Shown here piece after piece: positions 36,561 to 45,966 of a stretch of 64,000 nucleotides of DNA (its first letter is position 1; every line of letters begins with the position of its first letter). The notes beneath the pieces are model-generated. The model saw only the letters and a program-made list of their open reading frames with translations. It did no database searches and was not told the origin of the DNA. The stretch is taken from NCBI GenBank assembly GCA_902514615.1, contig CABXRG010000003.1, forward strand, positions 1-64,000, written 5' to 3'. Source of the DNA: an uncultured Bacteroidota bacterium. Lineage in GTDB: Bacteria; Bacteroidota; Bacteroidia; Flavobacteriales; Flavobacteriaceae. Position numbers and translations under genes: made by a program.

Positions 36561-37164
36561 ATACAACTTTTTTTGTCTGAAAAAAGTCCTCATTGAAAAA
36601 GTCAGAAATTTCAAACACCTTATTATTTTTATGATCTTTTAATTCTTTTTCTAGGTTACCACCTTTTAAAGAAATTATACCATTTGGTAATTCATTTAAA
36701 GATTTAGATTTAATATTCTTGTTAACCATAGAATAAAACTTATCCATTTTAGACACTGCTCTTGATACAACAAAGTCATATTTATCATTATGATCCTCTA
36801 CTCGACCATTTACTGCTTTTACATTGTTCAGTGACAAGTTTTTAGATATATCTTCTACAACTTTAATTTTTTTTCCAATACTGTCTAATAAAGTAAAATT
36901 AACCTTTGGAAAAAAAATAGATAGTGGTATACCAGGAAAACCTCCACCAGTTCCAACATCAAGTATATTAGTTCCTTCCTTAAATTTTATAATCTTTATA
37001 ATAGCTAGAGAATGTAGGATGTGATTAATGTATAAATTTTCAATATCTCTTCTAGAAATTAAATTTACTTTTGAATTCCAGCTTCTATACAAAGGGATTA
37101 GACTATTATATTTCTCTAACTGTTCCGGAGATAAATTAGAAAAATATTTCTTTAAATTAATCAA
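36544..37164 (-). CDS. rsmG: 16S rRNA (guanine527-N7)-methyltransferase
   Basis: A 206-residue GidB/RsmG methyltransferase modifying G527 in the 530 loop of 16S rRNA. It shows YRSWNSKVNLISRRDIENLYINHILHSL, the SAM site NILDVGTGGGFPGIPLSIFFP, and VVSRAVSKMDKF. Loss of this enzyme gives low-level streptomycin resistance in other bacteria. It overlaps the aminotransferase gene by four bases, so it belongs to the aromatic operon. Confidence 0.94.
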   Translation of the reverse strand: MINLKKYFSNLSPEQLEKYNSLIPLYRSWNSKVNLISRRDIENLYINHILHSLAIIKIIKFKEGTNILDVGTGGGFPGIPLSIFFPKVNFTLLDSIGKKIKVVEDISKNLSLNNVKAVNGRVEDHNDKYDFVVSRAVSKMDKFYSMVNKNIKSKSLNELPNGIISLKGGNLEKELKDHKNNKVFEISDFFNEDFFQTKKVVYVPYL

Positions 37165-38342
37165 GATAAAATATCTTTAATTCTCTTAATAGCTTCTTCT
37201 ATTTGTTCTCTAGATGTTGAGTATGAAATTCTTATACAGTTTGGATAACCAAAAGCATCACCAGGAACAGTAGCAACATGAGCCTTCTCTAAAATTAACA
37301 TTGATAAATCGTTTGCATTCTTAACAGTTTGGCCCTTAAATGTCTTACCAAATAATTCAGATACTTCAGGAAAAACATAGAATGCACCAGCTGGAGGTTT
37401 TTTTATTTCAAAACCCTCAATTTGATTGACTAATTCAATTATTAAATCTCTTCTAATTTTAAATTCATCAACCATATATTTAATTCTTTCAGGAGATTCT
37501 TCTAATGCTTTAATTGTAGCCCTTTGTGCGATACAATTTGCACCACTTGTTATTTGACCTTGCATTTTATTACATGCTTTGGCTATCACTTTAGGGGCGG
37601 CTAAATATCCGATTCTCCAACCTGTCATTGCAAATGCTTTAGATATTCCATTTACAGTTACAGTTCTCTCATACATGCCCGGTAAACTTGCAAAACTTAC
37701 ACTTTTAGAACCATAATTAATATGCTCATATATTTCATCTGAAACAACAATTATATTTGGATAGTTTTGCAAAACTTTTGAAAACGCTAAATATTCTTCT
37801 TCACTAAAAACTGAACCACTAGGATTATTTGGCGAATTAAACATTATCATTTTTGTTTTTTCTGTTATTGCAGATTCAAGTTGTTCTGCAGTAACCTTAT
37901 AATTTGCATCTTCATGCGGATGAACAAATACGGGGATTCCATCTGCAAGAGATACCATAGCACTATAACTAACCCAATATGGAGTTGGAATAACAACCTC
38001 ATCACCTTTATTTATAAGAGACATGCAAACATTTGCAATAGATTGTTTAGCTCCAGTAGATACAACAATTTGATCAGTGTCATAATCCAAATTATTATCT
38101 CTTTTGAATTTTCCACAAATTGCTTTTTTAAGATCTAGAAAGCCATCAACAGGAGAATACTTATGATAATTTTCATTTATAGCATCAATCGCTGCTTCCT
38201 TTATATAATCAGGTATATTAAAGTCAGGTTCACCTGCACTTAAAGTTATAACGTCTATACCTTTATTCTTTAAATCATGAGCTTTAGCAGTCATTGCAAC
38301 AGTTTGTGAAATTGGTAATGATTTAATTTTATCTGATAACAT
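37161..38342 (-). CDS. Aspartate/aromatic aminotransferase (class I PLP)
   Basis: A 393-residue class I aminotransferase of the Ib aspartate/prephenate type. It shows ITLSAGEPDFNIPDYIKEAA, GAKQSIANVCMSLINKGDEVVIPTPYW, MFNSPNNPSGSVFS, VVSDEIYEHINYG and the PLP lysine in VNGISKAFAMTGWRIGY. Its position right after pheA, tyrA and DAHP synthase suggests the final transamination to Phe and Tyr, though aspartate is an equally usual substrate for this family. Confidence 0.9.
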   Translation of the reverse strand: MLSDKIKSLPISQTVAMTAKAHDLKNKGIDVITLSAGEPDFNIPDYIKEAAIDAINENYHKYSPVDGFLDLKKAICGKFKRDNNLDYDTDQIVVSTGAKQSIANVCMSLINKGDEVVIPTPYWVSYSAMVSLADGIPVFVHPHEDANYKVTAEQLESAITEKTKMIMFNSPNNPSGSVFSEEEYLAFSKVLQNYPNIIVVSDEIYEHINYGSKSVSFASLPGMYERTVTVNGISKAFAMTGWRIGYLAAPKVIAKACNKMQGQITSGANCIAQRATIKALEESPERIKYMVDEFKIRRDLIIELVNQIEGFEIKKPPAGAFYVFPEVSELFGKTFKGQTVKNANDLSMLILEKAHVATVPGDAFGYPNCIRISYSTSREQIEEAIKRIKDILS

Positions 38343-38349
38343 GCTTTTA

Positions 38350-39432
38350 TTATTTATTTAAAATTTTTTTTTGGTTGTTTATAGATTCTTGGTGTATTGC
38401 TTTAAAAAACCTCAGAATGAATTCTTCACTTAAACCATGATCCTCACCATCTAGTATCATCTTTCCTAGGATTTCATTCCATCTTTTATTTTGAAGTATT
38501 GCAACATTATTATCTGATTTAAGTTTACCAATATCTTTGGCAACTTTCATTCTTTTTCCAAGGGTTGTTAATAAATTTTGATCTGCAACATCAATTTGAG
38601 ATCTTAAATTATTTAATTGATTTTGATAATCTTCTCCCTGAGAAGTCTTATCTCTTATTTTAAGGTCCTTCATTATTTGTATTAAATGTTTTGGCGTAAC
38701 CTGCTGAGCGGCATCACTCCAGGCATTATCTGGATCCCAATGTGATTCAATCATTAAACCATCATAATTTAAATCCAAAGATGTTTGACTTAAATCATAA
38801 ATTAAATCTCTTTTTCCTGCAATGTGAGATGGATCACAGATAAGAGGAATATCAGGGAAATTATTTTGAAACTCAACAGCAATTTGCCATTCAGGGTTAT
38901 TTCTATATTTGGATTTATCGTATGAGGAAAAGCCTCTATGAATAACTCCAATATTTTTAATATCAGCTGAATAAATTCTTTCTAAACCACCCATCCATAA
39001 AGCCAAATCAGGATTAACAGGATTTTTTATCAATACTATCTTATCTGTCCCTTTTAATGCATCTGCAATTTCTTGAACTATAAATGGACTTACAGTTGAT
39101 CTTGCTCCAATCCATAATATATCAATATCATGTTTTAATGCCAAATCTACATGAACAGAATTAGCAACCTCTGTTGCTATTTTTAAACCAGTTTCTTTTT
39201 TTACTTTTTCTAACCATTTCAATCCAATTGCACCAACTCCTTCAAACATTCCAGGTCTTGTTCGTGGTTTCCAAATTCCAGCTCTATACGCACTTACATC
39301 AGAGTCTTTTAATTCGTGTGCAATTTTTAAAACTTGTTCTTCAGTTTCCGCACTACACGGACCTGCAATAACAAGCGGATGATCTAAGTTCATATGGTCA
39401 AGCCAATTCCTGTACTCTTTTTTATTTTTCAT
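38350..39432 (-). CDS. Bifunctional DAHP synthase / chorismate mutase
   Basis: A 360-residue fusion. Residues 1 to about 255 are a type I-beta DAHP synthase (VIAGPCSAETEEQV, RAGIWKPRTRPGMFEGVG, LWIGARSTVSPFIVQEIA, LICDPSHIAGKRDL), joining PEP and erythrose 4-phosphate. Residues about 270-360 are an AroQ-type chorismate mutase helix bundle (LNNLRSQIDVADQNLLTTLGKRMKV). In Prevotella and Porphyromonas the mutase domain also serves as the feedback sensor. It lies between tyrA and the aminotransferase, so one protein supplies the first step and the chorismate branch of the pathway. Confidence 0.94.
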   Translation of the reverse strand: MKNKKEYRNWLDHMNLDHPLVIAGPCSAETEEQVLKIAHELKDSDVSAYRAGIWKPRTRPGMFEGVGAIGLKWLEKVKKETGLKIATEVANSVHVDLALKHDIDILWIGARSTVSPFIVQEIADALKGTDKIVLIKNPVNPDLALWMGGLERIYSADIKNIGVIHRGFSSYDKSKYRNNPEWQIAVEFQNNFPDIPLICDPSHIAGKRDLIYDLSQTSLDLNYDGLMIESHWDPDNAWSDAAQQVTPKHLIQIMKDLKIRDKTSQGEDYQNQLNNLRSQIDVADQNLLTTLGKRMKVAKDIGKLKSDNNVAILQNKRWNEILGKMILDGEDHGLSEEFILRFFKAIHQESINNQKKILNK

Positions 39433-39437
39433 AGTTT

Positions 39438-40286
39438 CTAGTTAATTCCTTTTAAAATTTCTTTAATGCCATTGATTTTTTTCATTTCAGTGTTAAGATT
39501 ATCCTGATCACTACTCTCAATCATTTTTTTAAAATTATTAATATTTAAGATGTATTCCTCAAGAGATTCAATAATGTTTATTTTGTTTTCAATAAAGATT
39601 GAAGACCACATTTCAGGAGAACTTTTAGCTAATCTAACTGTGGATTCAAATCCACTACCAGCCATATCGTAAATTGTTTGTTCATCATCCTCTTTATCCA
39701 TAACTGTTTTTCCTAACATAAAAGATGAAATATGTGATAAATGAGACACATAAGCTATATGCTTATCATGTGCTATTGAATCCATTGTCTTAATACTCAT
39801 TCCTAAATTTTTAAAGATTTCAATTGCTCCTGAAAGCAGAGTAGATGAAGTCATTTCAGTTTCACATAAAATCATAACCTTTTTATCAAATAAATCTTTT
39901 TTTGCTGCAACAGGACCTGAAAATTCAGTACCAGCTATTGGATGTGCAGCTAAAAAGTTTTTTCTTTTATTGTGGTTTTTTACAGATTTACAAATTTCAT
40001 ATTTAGTTGATCCTAAATCAATCACCAAAGTTTTTTTAGGTATTCTATTTAGAATACTATTTAGCTGATTTTTAATTGATTCAACAGGAACTGCGAGGAA
40101 TAAATAATCAAAATCTAATGATGATTTTGGATCAAATACTTTATCTATAATTTTATTCTTTAATGAAAAGTCAAGTGATTGATTGTTCTTATCAAAACCA
40201 TAGATAGAAATATTTTTATTGACTTCTTTCAATTTTAAAGCAATAGATCCACCTATTAAACCTAAACCTATTATCCCAACTTTCAT
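39438..40286 (-). CDS. tyrA: Prephenate dehydrogenase
   Basis: A 282-residue NAD(P)-dependent enzyme making 4-hydroxyphenylpyruvate for tyrosine. The Rossmann start is VGIIGLGLIGGSIALKL. LAAHPIAGTEFSGP carries the catalytic His, and HIAYVSHLSHISSFML is the second conserved block of TyrA. There is no ACT or chorismate mutase domain; the mutase is supplied by the downstream fusion. It overlaps pheA by four bases (ATGA). Confidence 0.94.
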   Translation of the reverse strand: MKVGIIGLGLIGGSIALKLKEVNKNISIYGFDKNNQSLDFSLKNKIIDKVFDPKSSLDFDYLFLAVPVESIKNQLNSILNRIPKKTLVIDLGSTKYEICKSVKNHNKRKNFLAAHPIAGTEFSGPVAAKKDLFDKKVMILCETEMTSSTLLSGAIEIFKNLGMSIKTMDSIAHDKHIAYVSHLSHISSFMLGKTVMDKEDDEQTIYDMAGSGFESTVRLAKSSPEMWSSIFIENKINIIESLEEYILNINNFKKMIESSDQDNLNTEMKKINGIKEILKGIN

Positions 40287-41095
40287 ATTTTTTGATATTT
40301 ATACTCACCTAAAATTTTAAATTCTTGAGCCATTAATTCAATGATTTTGACTGCCTTTTGGTAGCTTTCAATTGAACTAAAAGTTATATCAACAAAAAAG
40401 GCGTATTTACCAGGAATTTGAATAACTGGTAAAGATTGAATTTTTGTTAGATTTAAACTACAATCACTCATCATATTCAGAACTGTAGCTAGACTTCCTC
40501 TTTTATGATCGAGAATAAACTTTAGAGCTGCCTTATTATAATCAATTATATTTTTTTGATTCTTTTCAAGAACAACAAATCGAGTCTTATTATTTTTAAT
40601 GGTTTGTATTGAGGATTCTAAAATTGTCAAATTATATATCTTAGAAGCATCTATACTAGCAATTGCAGCAACCCCCATAATCTTTTTATCGGCTATATTT
40701 TTTGCACCTAACGCTGTATCCTCACTTTCAATTAATTTTATATGAGGATAATTACTGAAAAACTTAGAACACTGTAATAAAGCCATTGGATGAGAATGAA
40801 CTTCTTGGATATCATTAATTTTTTGATTTGGAAGACACATTAAGTTGTGATCAATATTTAAACTGTATTCTCCGGTGATTGAAAGATTATACTCATCTAT
40901 TAAAGCATAGTTTGGAAGGATTGAACCAGCAATTGAATTTTCAATAGCCATTATTCCATACTCAGAGTCGTTATCAACTACTGATTTTACAAGACTCTCA
41001 AAAGTTGAACATTCATTTAATTCAAATGAATCAAAATAATGATTAGCTACCATATGGTGAAATGATCCTCTAATTCCCTGAATAGATACTTTCAT
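40283..41095 (-). CDS. pheA: Prephenate dehydratase
   Basis: A 270-residue enzyme making phenylpyruvate. The catalytic domain (about 1-180) shows VSIQGIRGSFHHMVA, GIMAIENSIAGSI, SHPMALLQC and the NKTRFVVL signature with the catalytic Thr. A C-terminal ACT domain (about 188-270) has GSLATVLNMMSDCSLNLTKIQSLPV, expected to bind Phe for feedback inhibition. First structural gene of the aromatic operon. The ATG sits two bases after the T tract of an intrinsic terminator, so expression depends on read-through of that attenuator. Confidence 0.95.
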   Translation of the reverse strand: MKVSIQGIRGSFHHMVANHYFDSFELNECSTFESLVKSVVDNDSEYGIMAIENSIAGSILPNYALIDEYNLSITGEYSLNIDHNLMCLPNQKINDIQEVHSHPMALLQCSKFFSNYPHIKLIESEDTALGAKNIADKKIMGVAAIASIDASKIYNLTILESSIQTIKNNKTRFVVLEKNQKNIIDYNKAALKFILDHKRGSLATVLNMMSDCSLNLTKIQSLPVIQIPGKYAFFVDITFSSIESYQKAVKIIELMAQEFKILGEYKYQKI

Positions 41096-41261: not shown

Positions 41262-41690
41262 CTATTTTTTAATTATTGATCCGTTTAAATATATAGAATG
41301 TTCTATTGTTGTAGACTTTTCTAAATTCTTTGAAACTGAGCAGTATTTATCAAAACTTAATGCTGCTGCGCGAATTATTTTATCACCAGGAATATCACCT
41401 TCTACAAAAAGCTTTACATGAATTCTTTTATATGGTTCACCAGGAGTTGATTCTCTATCACCCTCAACTTCCATTTTGTATGAATCTGGGTTTAATTTTT
41501 GCTTTTCTAATATAGATATAATGTCAATACTACTACATCCTGCAACACCCATTAATAGTAACTCCATTGGACTCACTCCCTTTACATTATAATCTGGAGA
41601 GTATTTTCTATCAAGAAATACTTGATGTCCATTTTTATTAGTTAACTCAAATAAGTATTTGTCATTAACTCTATCTAATTGTACTGCCAT
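41262..41690 (-). CDS. OsmC family protein
   Basis: A 142-residue OsmC/Ohr-fold protein starting MAVQLDRVND. LLMGVAGCSSIDIISILEKQKL holds the first conserved Cys of the family, and FDKYCSVSKNLEK holds the second. Such proteins are thiol-dependent peroxidases for organic hydroperoxides, or of unknown substrate when in biosynthetic operons. The frame is open upstream to 41735, but ATG 41690, one base after the metX stop, fits the family start. Last gene of the metK-metY-metX operon. Confidence 0.85.
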   Translation of the reverse strand: MAVQLDRVNDKYLFELTNKNGHQVFLDRKYSPDYNVKGVSPMELLLMGVAGCSSIDIISILEKQKLNPDSYKMEVEGDRESTPGEPYKRIHVKLFVEGDIPGDKIIRAAALSFDKYCSVSKNLEKSTTIEHSIYLNGSIIKK

Positions 41691-41691
41691 T

Positions 41692-42654
41692 TTAAAATAT
41701 TTTTGTAAAGATATCTGAAATTTGTTTTGTTTCAATCAAAAATGCATCATGACCATGAATAGAATTTAAAATATGAATCTTAATATCAATATTATTTTTT
41801 TTCGCTATCGAATAAGTTTTATGATCTTCATCAGGTAAAAAGAATATATCTGAGTCTACAGATATTAAATGAATTGAAGATTTTGTTTTAGAAATTTTAT
41901 TTATAAAACTCTCACCATCACGAGTAATATTAGTAGAACTTAGAAGTTTATTCATGAATAAATATGATTCAAGGCTGAATCTTTGACGAAGTTTTGTTCC
42001 ATGATGACTAAGCCATGACTCTACATTATACATGTTCTTATCTAAATTTTTTGTTCTAGTAAACCTTGTATTTAAAGATTTTGGAGTTCTATAAAAGGTC
42101 ATTGCATGAATTCTAGCATCACTCACAGGGTCTCTGGAGTTCTTAAGAATTCTATCTTGGAGAAATGTATTAGCAATTAACCAATCAGTAGCTTTCCAAT
42201 CAGCAGCCACCGGAATTATTATTGATGCTAAATCATTATTAAGTGCAATCATTTCCCATGTCAAACATCCACCAATAGAGCCTCCAATAATGGCATGAAG
42301 CTTGGCAAGTTTTAGTTTGTCAATGGCTTTAATAAACAATAAAGCTATGTCACCAAGATTAAGGTCTAAGTTAAAATCAAAATTATTTTCATTGAAACCA
42401 TTACCAGGAATATTAAAGCTTAAAACAGAATATTTTGTTGTATCAATTGGTTTTTCAAATCCAATAATCTCATTCCACCATCCATTAATTCCTGAGACAA
42501 GAGAGTTACCAGTTAACGCATGATTAACAAGAATCACTGGCGCACTCCCTAACTTTTTTCCAAAAACCTGATAACTTATCTGAATTTTTTTAATTTTTGA
42601 TCCAGATAGTGTCTCAAAATCTTCCAGCAATATATATTTTAACTCCTCTTCCAA
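41692..42654 (-). CDS. metX: Homoserine O-acetyltransferase-like alpha/beta hydrolase
   Basis: A 320-residue alpha/beta hydrolase of the MetX group: PVILVNHALTGNSLVSG with GWWNEIIGFEKPIDT, the nucleophile Ser126 in GGSIGGC, acid Asp in SVDSDIFFLPDE and His in SIHGHDAFL. It should acetylate homoserine to feed MetY. It is about 50 residues shorter than classical MetX, mainly in the lid region. The best start is a TTG two bases after the metY stop; no ATG is near. Acetyl versus succinyl donor is inferred from family only. Confidence 0.85.
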   Translation of the reverse strand: MEEELKYILLEDFETLSGSKIKKIQISYQVFGKKLGSAPVILVNHALTGNSLVSGINGWWNEIIGFEKPIDTTKYSVLSFNIPGNGFNENNFDFNLDLNLGDIALLFIKAIDKLKLAKLHAIIGGSIGGCLTWEMIALNNDLASIIIPVAADWKATDWLIANTFLQDRILKNSRDPVSDARIHAMTFYRTPKSLNTRFTRTKNLDKNMYNVESWLSHHGTKLRQRFSLESYLFMNKLLSSTNITRDGESFINKISKTKSSIHLISVDSDIFFLPDEDHKTYSIAKKNNIDIKIHILNSIHGHDAFLIETKQISDIFTKIF

Positions 42655-42656
42655 TT

Positions 42657-43928
42657 TTATAATGAGCTTAAAGAATCTTTAAGATCATTAATTAAATCAA
42701 TAGGATCTTCAAGACCAATACTAAGTCTAATTAAATCAGATGTAACACCTGTTTCTGCTTGTTGATCCTCATTTAATTGTTGGTGAGTAGTACTAGAGGG
42801 GTGTATTATTAAAGATTTTGAATCTCCAAAATTTGCAAGTAATGAAAAAATCTTTGTACTATCAGTTAATTTTTTTGCAGACTCAAAGCCACCTTTCAAT
42901 CCAAAAGTAACAATCCCACTCTGTCCATTTTTTAAATATTTTTTTGACAGATTATGATATTTTGAAGACTTTAAACCCGGATAATTCACCCAAGCAATTT
43001 CATCTTGACTTTCAAGCCATTCAGCAATTTTCAGTGCATTTTCAGAATGTTTTTTTATTCTTACTGATAAAGTCTCAAGACCTTGAATTGTCTGAAAACA
43101 ATTAAATGGACTTGGCGCACTACCCAGATCTCTTAATCCTTCTATTCTAACTTTAGCTATAAATGCAGCTGGTCCAAGTGCTTCATGATATACTAATCCA
43201 TGATACCCTGCAGATGGAGTTGTAAATTCGTCAAATAGTCCACTACTCCAGTCAAAGTTTCCAGCATCAATTATAACTCCTCCAATTGATGTTCCATTTC
43301 CAGTAATATATTTTGTAGTAGAATGAATCACTATATCTGCTCCATAATTAATAGGCTTCAACAAATATGGTGTGGCAACTGTATTATCAACAATCAGTGG
43401 GAGTTTAGATGCTTTTGAAATTTTTGAAATAGACTCTATATCTAGAACATCCAATTTAGGATTTCCCATACTCTCTATATACACTACTCTAGTATTTTCA
43501 TTAATTGCTTTTGAAAAATTTTCAGTGTCATCAGGATCTACAAAAGTGGTTGTGATTCCATACCTAGGTAGGGTTACATTAAGTAGATTATAAGTTCCTC
43601 CGTATAAACTATTTGAGGCAACTATATGATCTCCTGTTTTTAAAAGAGTTAAAAGAGTCGTGGCTAGTGCAGCAGATCCTGATGAAGTTGCAACTGCAGC
43701 TATACCTCCTTCTAAGGAAGCTAATCTTTGTTCTAGAACATCTGCTGTTGGGTTATTCAATCTTGTATATATATAACCAGGTTCAGCCAATGAAAATAAA
43801 TTAGCTGCATGGTCCGTATTATCAAAAACGTATGATGTTGTTTGATATATAGGAACTGCTCTAGTCCCCTCGGTTTTAGTTGTATTATGCCCAACATGTA
43901 ATGCTAGGGTTTGATCATTATGATTCAT
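42657..43928 (-). CDS. metY: O-acetylhomoserine sulfhydrylase / aminocarboxypropyltransferase
   Basis: A 423-residue Cys/Met metabolism PLP enzyme making homocysteine from O-acetylhomoserine and sulfide. It shows TLALHVGHNTTKTEGTRAVPIYQT, YTRLNNPTADVLEQRLASLEGG, the PLP lysine in DIVIHSTTKYITGNGTSIGG, and SIGLEDPIDLINDL near the end. The long form and wording of the start fit MetY rather than MetB/MetC. It overlaps metK by four bases (ATGA). Confidence 0.94.
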   Translation of the reverse strand: MNHNDQTLALHVGHNTTKTEGTRAVPIYQTTSYVFDNTDHAANLFSLAEPGYIYTRLNNPTADVLEQRLASLEGGIAAVATSSGSAALATTLLTLLKTGDHIVASNSLYGGTYNLLNVTLPRYGITTTFVDPDDTENFSKAINENTRVVYIESMGNPKLDVLDIESISKISKASKLPLIVDNTVATPYLLKPINYGADIVIHSTTKYITGNGTSIGGVIIDAGNFDWSSGLFDEFTTPSAGYHGLVYHEALGPAAFIAKVRIEGLRDLGSAPSPFNCFQTIQGLETLSVRIKKHSENALKIAEWLESQDEIAWVNYPGLKSSKYHNLSKKYLKNGQSGIVTFGLKGGFESAKKLTDSTKIFSLLANFGDSKSLIIHPSSTTHQQLNEDQQAETGVTSDLIRLSIGLEDPIDLINDLKDSLSSL

Positions 43929-45178
43929 TTTTTAAGTGTTTTAATTAATTGTTCTACGTATTCTAACTTTTCCCAAGGAAAAAGCTCAACCTCAATTTTC
44001 TTAACTCCAGAATATTTTGAGTTAAATGATTTGGTTTTTTTTTCAGATTTTCTACCCATATGACCATATGAAGCAGTTTCAAGATAAATTGGATCTCTTA
44101 ATTTAAATCTTGATTCTATCGAATGAGGTTTTAAGTCAAAAATTTCATTGACTATATCCGATAGTTGCGAATCTGAAATACTTAGTTTTGATTTACCACA
44201 AGTATTTACATTTAGTGATACTGGTTCAGCAATTCCAATAGCATATCCAACTTGAATTAATATTTCGTCAGAGACTCCTGCCTTTACTAAATTCTTAGAT
44301 ATGTGTCTTGCTGCATATGCGGCACTTCTATCTACTTTACTCGGGTCTTTTCCGCTAAAAGCACCTCCACCATGAGCTCCTCTTCCACCATATGTATCTA
44401 TAATTATTTTTCTACCTGTTAACCCCGTATCACCATGAGGACCTCCTATAACAAATTTACCTGTAGGATTAATATGATATTTAATATCATTATTAAATAA
44501 TTTTTGAATTTTAGTAGAATAACTATTCTTTACAATTGGAATTAAAATGTTAATCAAGTCTTTTCTAATTTTATCTAACATCTTCTTGTCGTCATTATCA
44601 AATTCATCATGTTGAGTTGAAATAACTATTGTATCAATCCTAAGTGGATTATCATTTTCATCATACTCAACAGTTACTTGTGATTTAGAATCTGGCCTCA
44701 AGTATTTGATTTCATTTGATTTTCTTAATTTAGATAGTTCTAATAAAAGTCTATTAGCAATATCTAAAGTCAGTGGAATAGCATCATCGGTTTCGTTACA
44801 AGCATATCCAAACATTATACCCTGATCTCCGGCACCTTGCTCTTCCTTATTATTTTTTTCTACTCCTCTTAAAATATCTTCTGATTGTTCATGTATTAGT
44901 GACATTACAGCACAAGACTCTCCAGAAAATTTATATTGATCATTGTTGTAACCAATATTCTTTATTACATTTCTTGCAACGTCTTGAACATCTACATAAG
45001 TTGAACTAGTTACTTCTCCGGATAGTATAACTTGTCCTGTTGTGACAAGAGTTTCACAAGCAACTTTACTATTAGGATCAAAAGCTAAAAAATTATCTAA
45101 TATCCCATCACTAATTTGATCTGAGACCTTGTCTGGATGTCCTTCACTAACTGATTCAGACGTAAATAAATACGACAT
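43925..45178 (-). CDS. metK: S-adenosylmethionine synthetase
   Basis: A 417-residue enzyme making SAM from methionine and ATP. It shows SESVSEGHPDKVSDQISD, GAGDQGIMFGYACNET, GGPHGDTGLTGRKIIIDTYGG and GGGAFSGKDPSKVDRSAAYAAR. Full family length. ATG 45178 lies about 100 bases after the predicted transcription start, leaving room for the SAM-II-like riboswitch that should repress metK, metY, metX and osmC when SAM is plentiful. Confidence 0.97.
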   Translation of the reverse strand: MSYLFTSESVSEGHPDKVSDQISDGILDNFLAFDPNSKVACETLVTTGQVILSGEVTSSTYVDVQDVARNVIKNIGYNNDQYKFSGESCAVMSLIHEQSEDILRGVEKNNKEEQGAGDQGIMFGYACNETDDAIPLTLDIANRLLLELSKLRKSNEIKYLRPDSKSQVTVEYDENDNPLRIDTIVISTQHDEFDNDDKKMLDKIRKDLINILIPIVKNSYSTKIQKLFNNDIKYHINPTGKFVIGGPHGDTGLTGRKIIIDTYGGRGAHGGGAFSGKDPSKVDRSAAYAARHISKNLVKAGVSDEILIQVGYAIGIAEPVSLNVNTCGKSKLSISDSQLSDIVNEIFDLKPHSIESRFKLRDPIYLETASYGHMGRKSEKKTKSFNSKYSGVKKIEVELFPWEKLEYVEQLIKTLKK

Positions 45179-45226
45179 AAAATTGGTTTGTGAGAAAAAA
45201 AATGAAAGATTGCGAGTAAAAAGATT

Positions 45227-45280
45227 ACTGCTTTAGCAATTTTTTTAAGAGGTTGCAATCAGTCAAATCCTTCCTCTGTT
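45227..45280 (-). ncRNA. SAM-II class riboswitch (metK leader)
   Basis: On the minus strand: P1 5' arm AGAGG (45277-45273), the conserved loop GATTT (45269-45265) and ATTGCA (45259-45254), P1 3' arm CCTCT (45252-45248), an A-rich linker, GCTAAA (45237-45232) and CAGT (45230-45227). CAGT can pair with ACTG (45263-45260) in the P1 loop to make the pseudoknot. The order and identity of GATTT, ATTGCA and GCTAAA match the SAM-binding core of SAM-II (also called metA or SAM-alpha); SAM-V shares this core. It starts about six bases after a perfect promoter and precedes SAM synthetase, the expected target. Confidence 0.87.
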
Positions 45281-45285
45281 TGACA

Positions 45286-45315
45286 CAAAAGTATTAAAAA
45301 AAAAATAATTTCAAA
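45286..45315 (-). promoter_or_regulatory. Promoter of the metK operon
   Basis: On the minus strand TTTG (45315-45312), an 18-base spacer and TACTTTTG (45293-45286), a full match to the Bacteroidota consensus. The same -7 octamer occurs in the pheA operon promoter. Transcription should begin near 45281, at the first bases of the riboswitch. Confidence 0.8.
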
Positions 45316-45363
45316 TTATTCTTCTTTTTTCTTTAAAAAAAACCTCCTATTTTGGCTAAAATT

Positions 45364-45966
45364 ATGAGAATAGCTATAGCAGGAAATATTGGCGCCGGAA
45401 AAACCAGTTTGACTAAACAACTTTCAAAAAGTTTAAAATATAAACCATATTATGAAGATGTAATTGCCAATCCTTATTTAGATGATTTCTATAATCATAT
45501 GGAAAGGTGGTCATTTAATCTCCAAATATATTTTTTAAATAGTCGCTTTAAACAGCTAGTGTCAATTGATAAAGGAAGTGAAAATGTAATTCAAGATAGG
45601 ACCATATATGAAGATGCATTTATTTTCGCTCCTAACCTTAATGCTATGGGTCTCATGACTCAAAGGGACTATGAAAATTATTTATCTCTGTTTGACACTA
45701 TGTTAAACCTTGTCAAACCACCAGATTTATTAGTTTACCTTCAAAGTAGTATTCCAAACCTTGTAAATAAAATTCATAAACGTGGAAGAGATTACGAAAA
45801 GACAATAAGTATTGAGTATTTAAGTAGACTAAATGAAAGATATGAAGCTTGGATTACTAACTATAATAGTGGAAAACTCCTAAAGATTAATGTAGACGAT
45901 CTAGATTTTGTAGATAATAAAACTGACTATGAAACAATCCTCGAACTTATAAAAAAGGAACTTTAG
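45364..45966 (+). CDS. Deoxynucleoside kinase family protein
   Basis: A 200-residue deoxynucleoside kinase. The P-loop is AGNIGAGKTSL at the N-terminus. YYEDVIANPYLDDFY and RWSFNLQIYFLNSRFKQ form the substrate pocket, and IQDRTIYEDAFIFA is the DRS-like motif. The lid is KRGRDYEK. It phosphorylates deoxynucleosides for salvage, with base preference not readable. A TTG four codons upstream is possible, but ATG 45364 is preferred; a TATTTTG box (45348-45354) ends 10 bases before it. Divergent from the metK riboswitch. Confidence 0.9.
   Translation: MRIAIAGNIGAGKTSLTKQLSKSLKYKPYYEDVIANPYLDDFYNHMERWSFNLQIYFLNSRFKQLVSIDKGSENVIQDRTIYEDAFIFAPNLNAMGLMTQRDYENYLSLFDTMLNLVKPPDLLVYLQSSIPNLVNKIHKRGRDYEKTISIEYLSRLNERYEAWITNYNSGKLLKINVDDLDFVDNKTDYETILELIKKEL

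Follow-up and report, generated by a model that had tools for sequence, protein, structure and literature searches.

In the literature on riboswitches that respond to S-adenosylmethionine (SAM), the SAM-II class goes back to Corbino et al. (2005, PMC1273637), while the family RF01726 was first described under the name 'SAM-II long loops', its taxa given as 'Bacteroidetes, marine' (Weinberg et al. 2010, PMC2864571). Alphaproteobacterial SAM-II RNAs (SAM_alpha, RF00521), known from S. meliloti metA and metZ (PMC9373788), act through intrinsic terminators or through a Shine–Dalgarno (SD) sequence placed inside the pseudoknot, and a metY member of SAM-V has been solved as an H-type pseudoknot (PMC6061858). 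For the SAM-II RNAs of Bacteroidota, no description of an expression platform or anti-aptamer leader was found in the open texts that we searched, which leaves priority unsure; the passages found in a transcriptome paper on B. thetaiotaomicron name only TPP riboswitches. Two further findings from flavobacteria are relevant here: F. johnsoniae lacks SD sequences and adjusts translation through the RNA structure in which the start codon is embedded (PMC6847099), and the transcriptome of F. psychrophilum places the main Bacteroidetes promoter box, TAnnTTTG, at -12 to -5 (PMC9723704).

The element analysed here lies upstream of metK on the minus strand of the window, as we call the whole stretch of 64,000 nucleotides under analysis, and it is with near certainty a genuine SAM-II RNA of the RF01726 type. 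In a cmscan search of the entire 64 kb window against 4227 families, RF01726 matched positions 45223–45282 over its full length (1–60 of 60) with 79.2 bits and an E value of 9.4e-14, which exceeds the gathering cut-off of 44 bits and is far beyond chance; no pair is broken in the alignment. This was the Infernal search that an earlier, sequence-only reading of the locus had proposed for its candidate SAM-II riboswitch, and it bears out the SAM-II part of that proposal. It does not extend to the two relatives invoked alongside, the alphaproteobacterial model RF00521 being rejected at 18.4 bits (cut-off 36) and SAM-V, in which a core common with SAM-II had been noticed, being absent even at E values up to 1. 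From position 45280 the minus strand reads AACAGAGGAAGGATTTGACTGATTGCAACCTCTTAAAAAAATTGCTAAAGCAGTAATC, and it contains, exactly as the same reading had it, P1 strands AGAGG and CCTCT with the motifs GATTT, ATTGCA and GCTAAA in SAM-II order; in the RF01726 alignment, these correspond to the P1 stem and the conserved core GATTTG / GATTGCAACC / GCTAAA (table 1). The pseudoknot ACTG/CAGT, first put forward as possible, joins the P1 loop with the 3' strand and is conserved in relatives, with compensatory changes of loop and 3' strand at two single loci (ACAG/CTGC and GACA/CTGT). Since P1 and pseudoknot pairing are both kept in related metK leaders and the covariance search was positive, neither of the two outcomes named beforehand as speaking against the proposal has occurred.

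The window copy shares with RF01726 the full-length covariance match, the Bacteroidetes and marine taxa, the presumed cis-regulatory role, P1, pseudoknot and core, but it has short loops instead of the long ones of the family's original name. With RF00521 it has in common the fold, the order of core elements, a transcript start few nucleotides ahead of P1 and methionine or SAM genes downstream. From its sequence, the window aptamer is expected to bind S-adenosylmethionine.

Table 1. Features of the metK leader and of the genes behind it (window coordinates)
Feature	Position	Strand	Evidence
Bacteroidota-type promoter: TTTG (45315-45312), 18-nt spacer, TACTTTTG (TAnnTTTG, 45293-45286)	45286..45315	-	sequence
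SAM-II riboswitch aptamer (RF01726), full length	45223..45282	-	cmscan and alignment
P1 stem-loop AGAGG (45277-45273)/CCTCT (45252-45248), with core GATTTG and GATTGC	45248..45277	-	sequence, alignment
Pseudoknot ACTG (45263-45260)/CAGT (45230-45227), with core GCTAAA (45237-45232) just before the CAGT strand	45227..45263	-	sequence
Pyrimidine-rich linker from aptamer to AUG, holding putative anti-aptamer strands and the translation-initiation region	45179..45222	-	sequence
Predicted SAM-free anti-aptamer hairpin	45192..45276	-	RNAfold, -24.7 kcal/mol
metK, S-adenosylmethionine synthetase	43925..45178	-	TIGR01034, 506.6 bits (cut-off 309)
metY, O-acetylhomoserine sulfhydrylase	42657..43928	-	TIGR01326, 633 bits (cut-off 495)
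MetX-like homoserine acyltransferase	41692..42654	-	NF001209, 158 bits (below cut-off 331); alpha/beta hydrolase fold
OsmC-like protein	41262..41735	-	PF02566, 71.8 bits

The promoter described in the sequence-only reading as perfect does match the Bacteroidota consensus at every defined position, and the known -12 to -5 placement of this box would set +1 at about 45281, where the start of the RNA had also been put. In 161 of 170 leaders, the 70 nt ahead of P1 include such a box, at a spacing that is nearly always 8–18 nt. A sigma-70 promoter scan, with its best match on the opposite strand, was set aside as irrelevant.

The family to which the riboswitch belongs was known before, and a position ahead of metK is ordinary for Flavobacteriaceae: whole-genome searches found RF01726 in 376 of 400 genomes of this family (324 of the 332 of good quality) and in 22 of 25 genomes of the window's genus. 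In a phylum-wide sample of 396 Bacteroidota genomes, 64 contained it, and the best 30 loci from across the phylum all lie upstream of metK. The host is a streamlined flavobacterium with an assembly of 1.03 Mb (80.6% complete), in which no SAM-I riboswitch (RF00162) was found; its nearest named records are metagenome-assembled genomes such as BS30m-G27 (96% MetK identity) and MED-G11, names that suggest a marine origin.

The gene order metK-metY-metX-osmC of the earlier reading stands for metK, metY and the OsmC-like gene, while the third gene can only be called MetX-like, its score below the curated cut-off making the exact activity less sure (table 1). The overlap of metK and metY, 4 nt in the window as in the other genus loci examined, makes joint control of the two genes plausible; with it fits the idea, put forward in the earlier reading, that a single switch may govern both methionine and SAM supply. 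Second SAM-II copies occur in small genomes, either directly upstream of a stand-alone metY (L103, L115, L137) or upstream of a queF-like gene (L092:1501-1560, L122, L185, L052:1349-1409, L125:61-121). In L092, L122 and L185 the second copy is followed by queF, a gene for a small membrane protein and metH, with queF and metH named by eye from their sequences; queF, which encodes an enzyme of queuosine precursor synthesis, is an unusual first gene behind a SAM switch. These second copies lead us to suggest that the SAM-II element marks a methionine/SAM regulon of streamlined flavobacteria, composed of metK-metY, metY alone and queF-membrane protein-metH.

What is less expected than the aptamer class, which was already known, is a downstream stretch complementary to the core of the very sensor that it follows, a feature that goes beyond the observations of the sequence-only reading. 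In the window, 44 nt separate the aptamer end from the start codon (linkers of relatives, counted from GCTAAA, measure 46–159 nt); the linker counts 12 C, 3 G and 25 T in 53 nt, no purine-rich SD is seen in it, and a scan of 44900–45600 returned no terminator-like site. It differs on both counts from alphaproteobacterial SAM-II RNAs. RNAfold pairs GAGGAAGGA (45276-45268) with TTTTTTCTC (45200-45192), GATTGC (45260-45255) with GCAATC (45213-45208) and TGA (45265-45263) with TCA (45205-45203), thereby forming one hairpin that cannot coexist with P1 and the pseudoknot and that reappears in the consensus folding of the genus leaders, 20 of 22 of which keep GCAATC. The hairpin's energy has a z of about -5 against dinucleotide-shuffled linkers, and when the whole leader is shuffled the window (-24.5 kcal/mol) has a z of -3.9 with none of 200 shuffles as good, all such values coming from nearest-neighbour folding that ignores the pseudoknot, the energy of SAM binding, kinetics and the temperature of seawater.

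Because the aptamers of the genus are too uniform for covariation analysis, wider sets of leaders were used, restricted to those that could be parsed cleanly and thus without some loci that have an extra base or a variant core. The z averages -2.97 over 100 non-redundant metK leaders and lies below -2 in 79% of them, and GATTGC is predicted to pair with the linker at 0.60 against 0.28 after shuffling. The exact antisense GTCAAATC of the core GATTTGAC occurs in 22 of 164 linkers, where shuffles predict 0.1; in the same linkers CTTTAG is found 40 times against 6 in shuffles, and GCAATC 37 times against 4. Each aptamer also prefers its own linker, the duplex being 2.3 kcal/mol better than the swapped-pair expectation (double-centred energy; permutation z -10). 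Covariation points in the same direction, with counts that, taken from related genomes, do not represent independent events: the base following GCTAAA and the one preceding TTTAG combine as G-C 37 times, G-U 7, A-U 9 and A-C never, and the base before GATTTG with that after CAAATC mostly as G-C (10) or A-U (11). Linkers with TCCTC or TCCAC divide 31:0 with GAGG aptamers and 5:5 with GTGG aptamers (Fisher p 0.0003), so that GTGG-type aptamers have the predicted TCCAC only half the time. It is therefore not chance complementarity or composition in a leader devoid of switching that we would invoke, an explanation to which we give hardly any credence: pyrimidine-rich linkers do pair with purine-rich aptamers partly by composition, as the shuffled pairing of 0.28–0.43 indicates, but the signal exceeds this in dinucleotide shuffles and word counts as well as in own-pair specificity and covariation. 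From these sequence comparisons, the linker likely works as an anti-aptamer.

How could such a leader control genes lacking an SD? When the aptamer is held bound, the mean accessibility predicted for positions -15 to -1 falls from 0.62 to 0.49 (shuffled linkers, 0.53 to 0.56); the shift is from 0.71 to 0.52 in genus leaders and from 0.60 to 0.34 in the window leader, with little or no change in about eight genus leaders. The start codon itself barely differs on average, and linker positions -40 to -20 gain accessibility in the bound state. Helices of 9–12 bp adjacent to the start codon, with p below 0.01, are present in 12 of 100 leaders. Several related genera have an explicit helix of this kind in the predicted bound state: in L088 TGTTGCTTTTA pairs with TAAAAGCAACA four bases ahead of ATG, and compensatory variants include AATTGCTTTG/CAAAGCAATT (L087) and TTTACTTTTTAG/CTAAAAAGTAAA (L094), with none of 200 shuffles as good. 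The start-side strand resembles the aptamer's AAAGCAG in most of these leaders, and in some (L101, L105) the fold predicted without SAM has the middle strand TTGCTTT paired with AAAGCAG. In the window an explicit sequestering helix next to the start was not found (the best has 3 bp), and only the folding shift is seen.

Starting from the aptamer, the promoter match, the gene order, the complementarity and its covariation, we favour as the probable mechanism a SAM-OFF switch in which aptamer and anti-aptamer exchange strands and SD-less translation is acted upon. With the transcript starting about 5 nt ahead of P1, the aptamer would fold first, and the exchange would presumably be co-transcriptional. 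Bound SAM would hold P1 and the pseudoknot together and leave the downstream linker free, to fold back over the start region (OFF); without SAM, linker segments able to pair with GAGGAAGGA, GATTGC and the GCTAAA/CAGT region would invade the aptamer to form one long hairpin, leaving the 13–15 nt ahead of the AUG open (ON). Plentiful SAM would accordingly turn down metK and probably also metY, the MetX-like gene and osmC. The start-region control so envisaged is compatible with the structure-tuned, SD-less translation of F. johnsoniae, and it resembles the sequestor/anti-sequestor platforms of translational riboswitches (scheme in Barrick and Breaker 2007, PMC2258182) in that mutually exclusive pairing sets the opening of the start region; it differs from them in that the competing strand is an antisense of the very core of the aptamer, and in that the target is an SD-less start region. 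To a more specific form of the idea we assign even chances: the Flavobacteriaceae metK leader may be a switch by mimicry of the whole aptamer, its linker evolving as an antisense of the SAM-II core, with a start-adjacent AAAGCAA that, in several related genera of mostly small genomes, mimics the pseudoknot strand AAAGCAG. A single middle strand, TTGCTTT, could then toggle between aptamer and start region, and SAM would control translation without any SD sequence.

Translation, and not transcription, as the controlled step is our inference, and the output of the switch is its uncertain part. The main rival retains the same anti-aptamer, but has the freed C/U-rich, G-poor linker load Rho, so that in the presence of SAM transcription would end by Rho-dependent termination ahead of metK or in its first part. 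We consider this unlikely, even if Rho is encoded in the host genome, the linker has the base composition given above, positions -40 to -20 open up in the bound state and translation-repressing riboswitches can provoke Rho termination (work cited in PMC9373788): the linker offers little length for a rut site, an excess of C over G is also expected of any strand antisense to a purine-rich aptamer, and the accessibility beside the start codon shifts too.

It is decidedly improbable that the pseudoknot alone blocks expression, with linker complementarity merely tuning the folding. Compact SAM-II RNAs do hide the SD in the pseudoknot (as summarised in PMC9373788); here there is no SD to hide, 44 nt lie between aptamer and start codon in the window and 46–159 nt, counted from GCTAAA, in relatives, and the specificity of aptamers for their own linkers indicates selection on pairing. 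Very improbable, too, is a switch of mRNA decay, in which the 5'-terminal hairpin of the SAM-free state would shield the message and SAM would expose the U-rich linker to RNase; the long hairpin does begin some 5 nt inside the inferred 5' end, but P1 likewise occupies the 5' end in the bound state. The SAM-OFF translational switch, if it operates through the anti-aptamer, would add the expression platform to what is known of RF01726 and offer a testable model for a translational riboswitch in a phylum of SD-less mRNAs, with covariation marking the exact bases to mutate.

Some minor observations concern aptamer variants and the surroundings of the locus. The aptamers of L108, L109, L112 and L121 have one additional base ahead of CCTC (e.g. 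GATTGCAAACCTC), and the SAM-II copy at L116:61-119, which immediately precedes a membrane-protein gene similar to that found elsewhere between queF and metH, has a core reading GATTGCTACCTC, with one base changed in a stretch that otherwise hardly varies. Directly downstream of the window's met genes, on the same strand and separated from them by about 166 nt, lies a cluster of pheA, tyrA, DAHP synthase/chorismate mutase and an aminotransferase (37161-41095). On the other side a divergent deoxynucleoside kinase (PF01712; 45352-45966, plus strand) is followed by a membrane pyrophosphatase, and neighbours similar to this pair adjoin metK in the flavobacterial loci L109 and L111.
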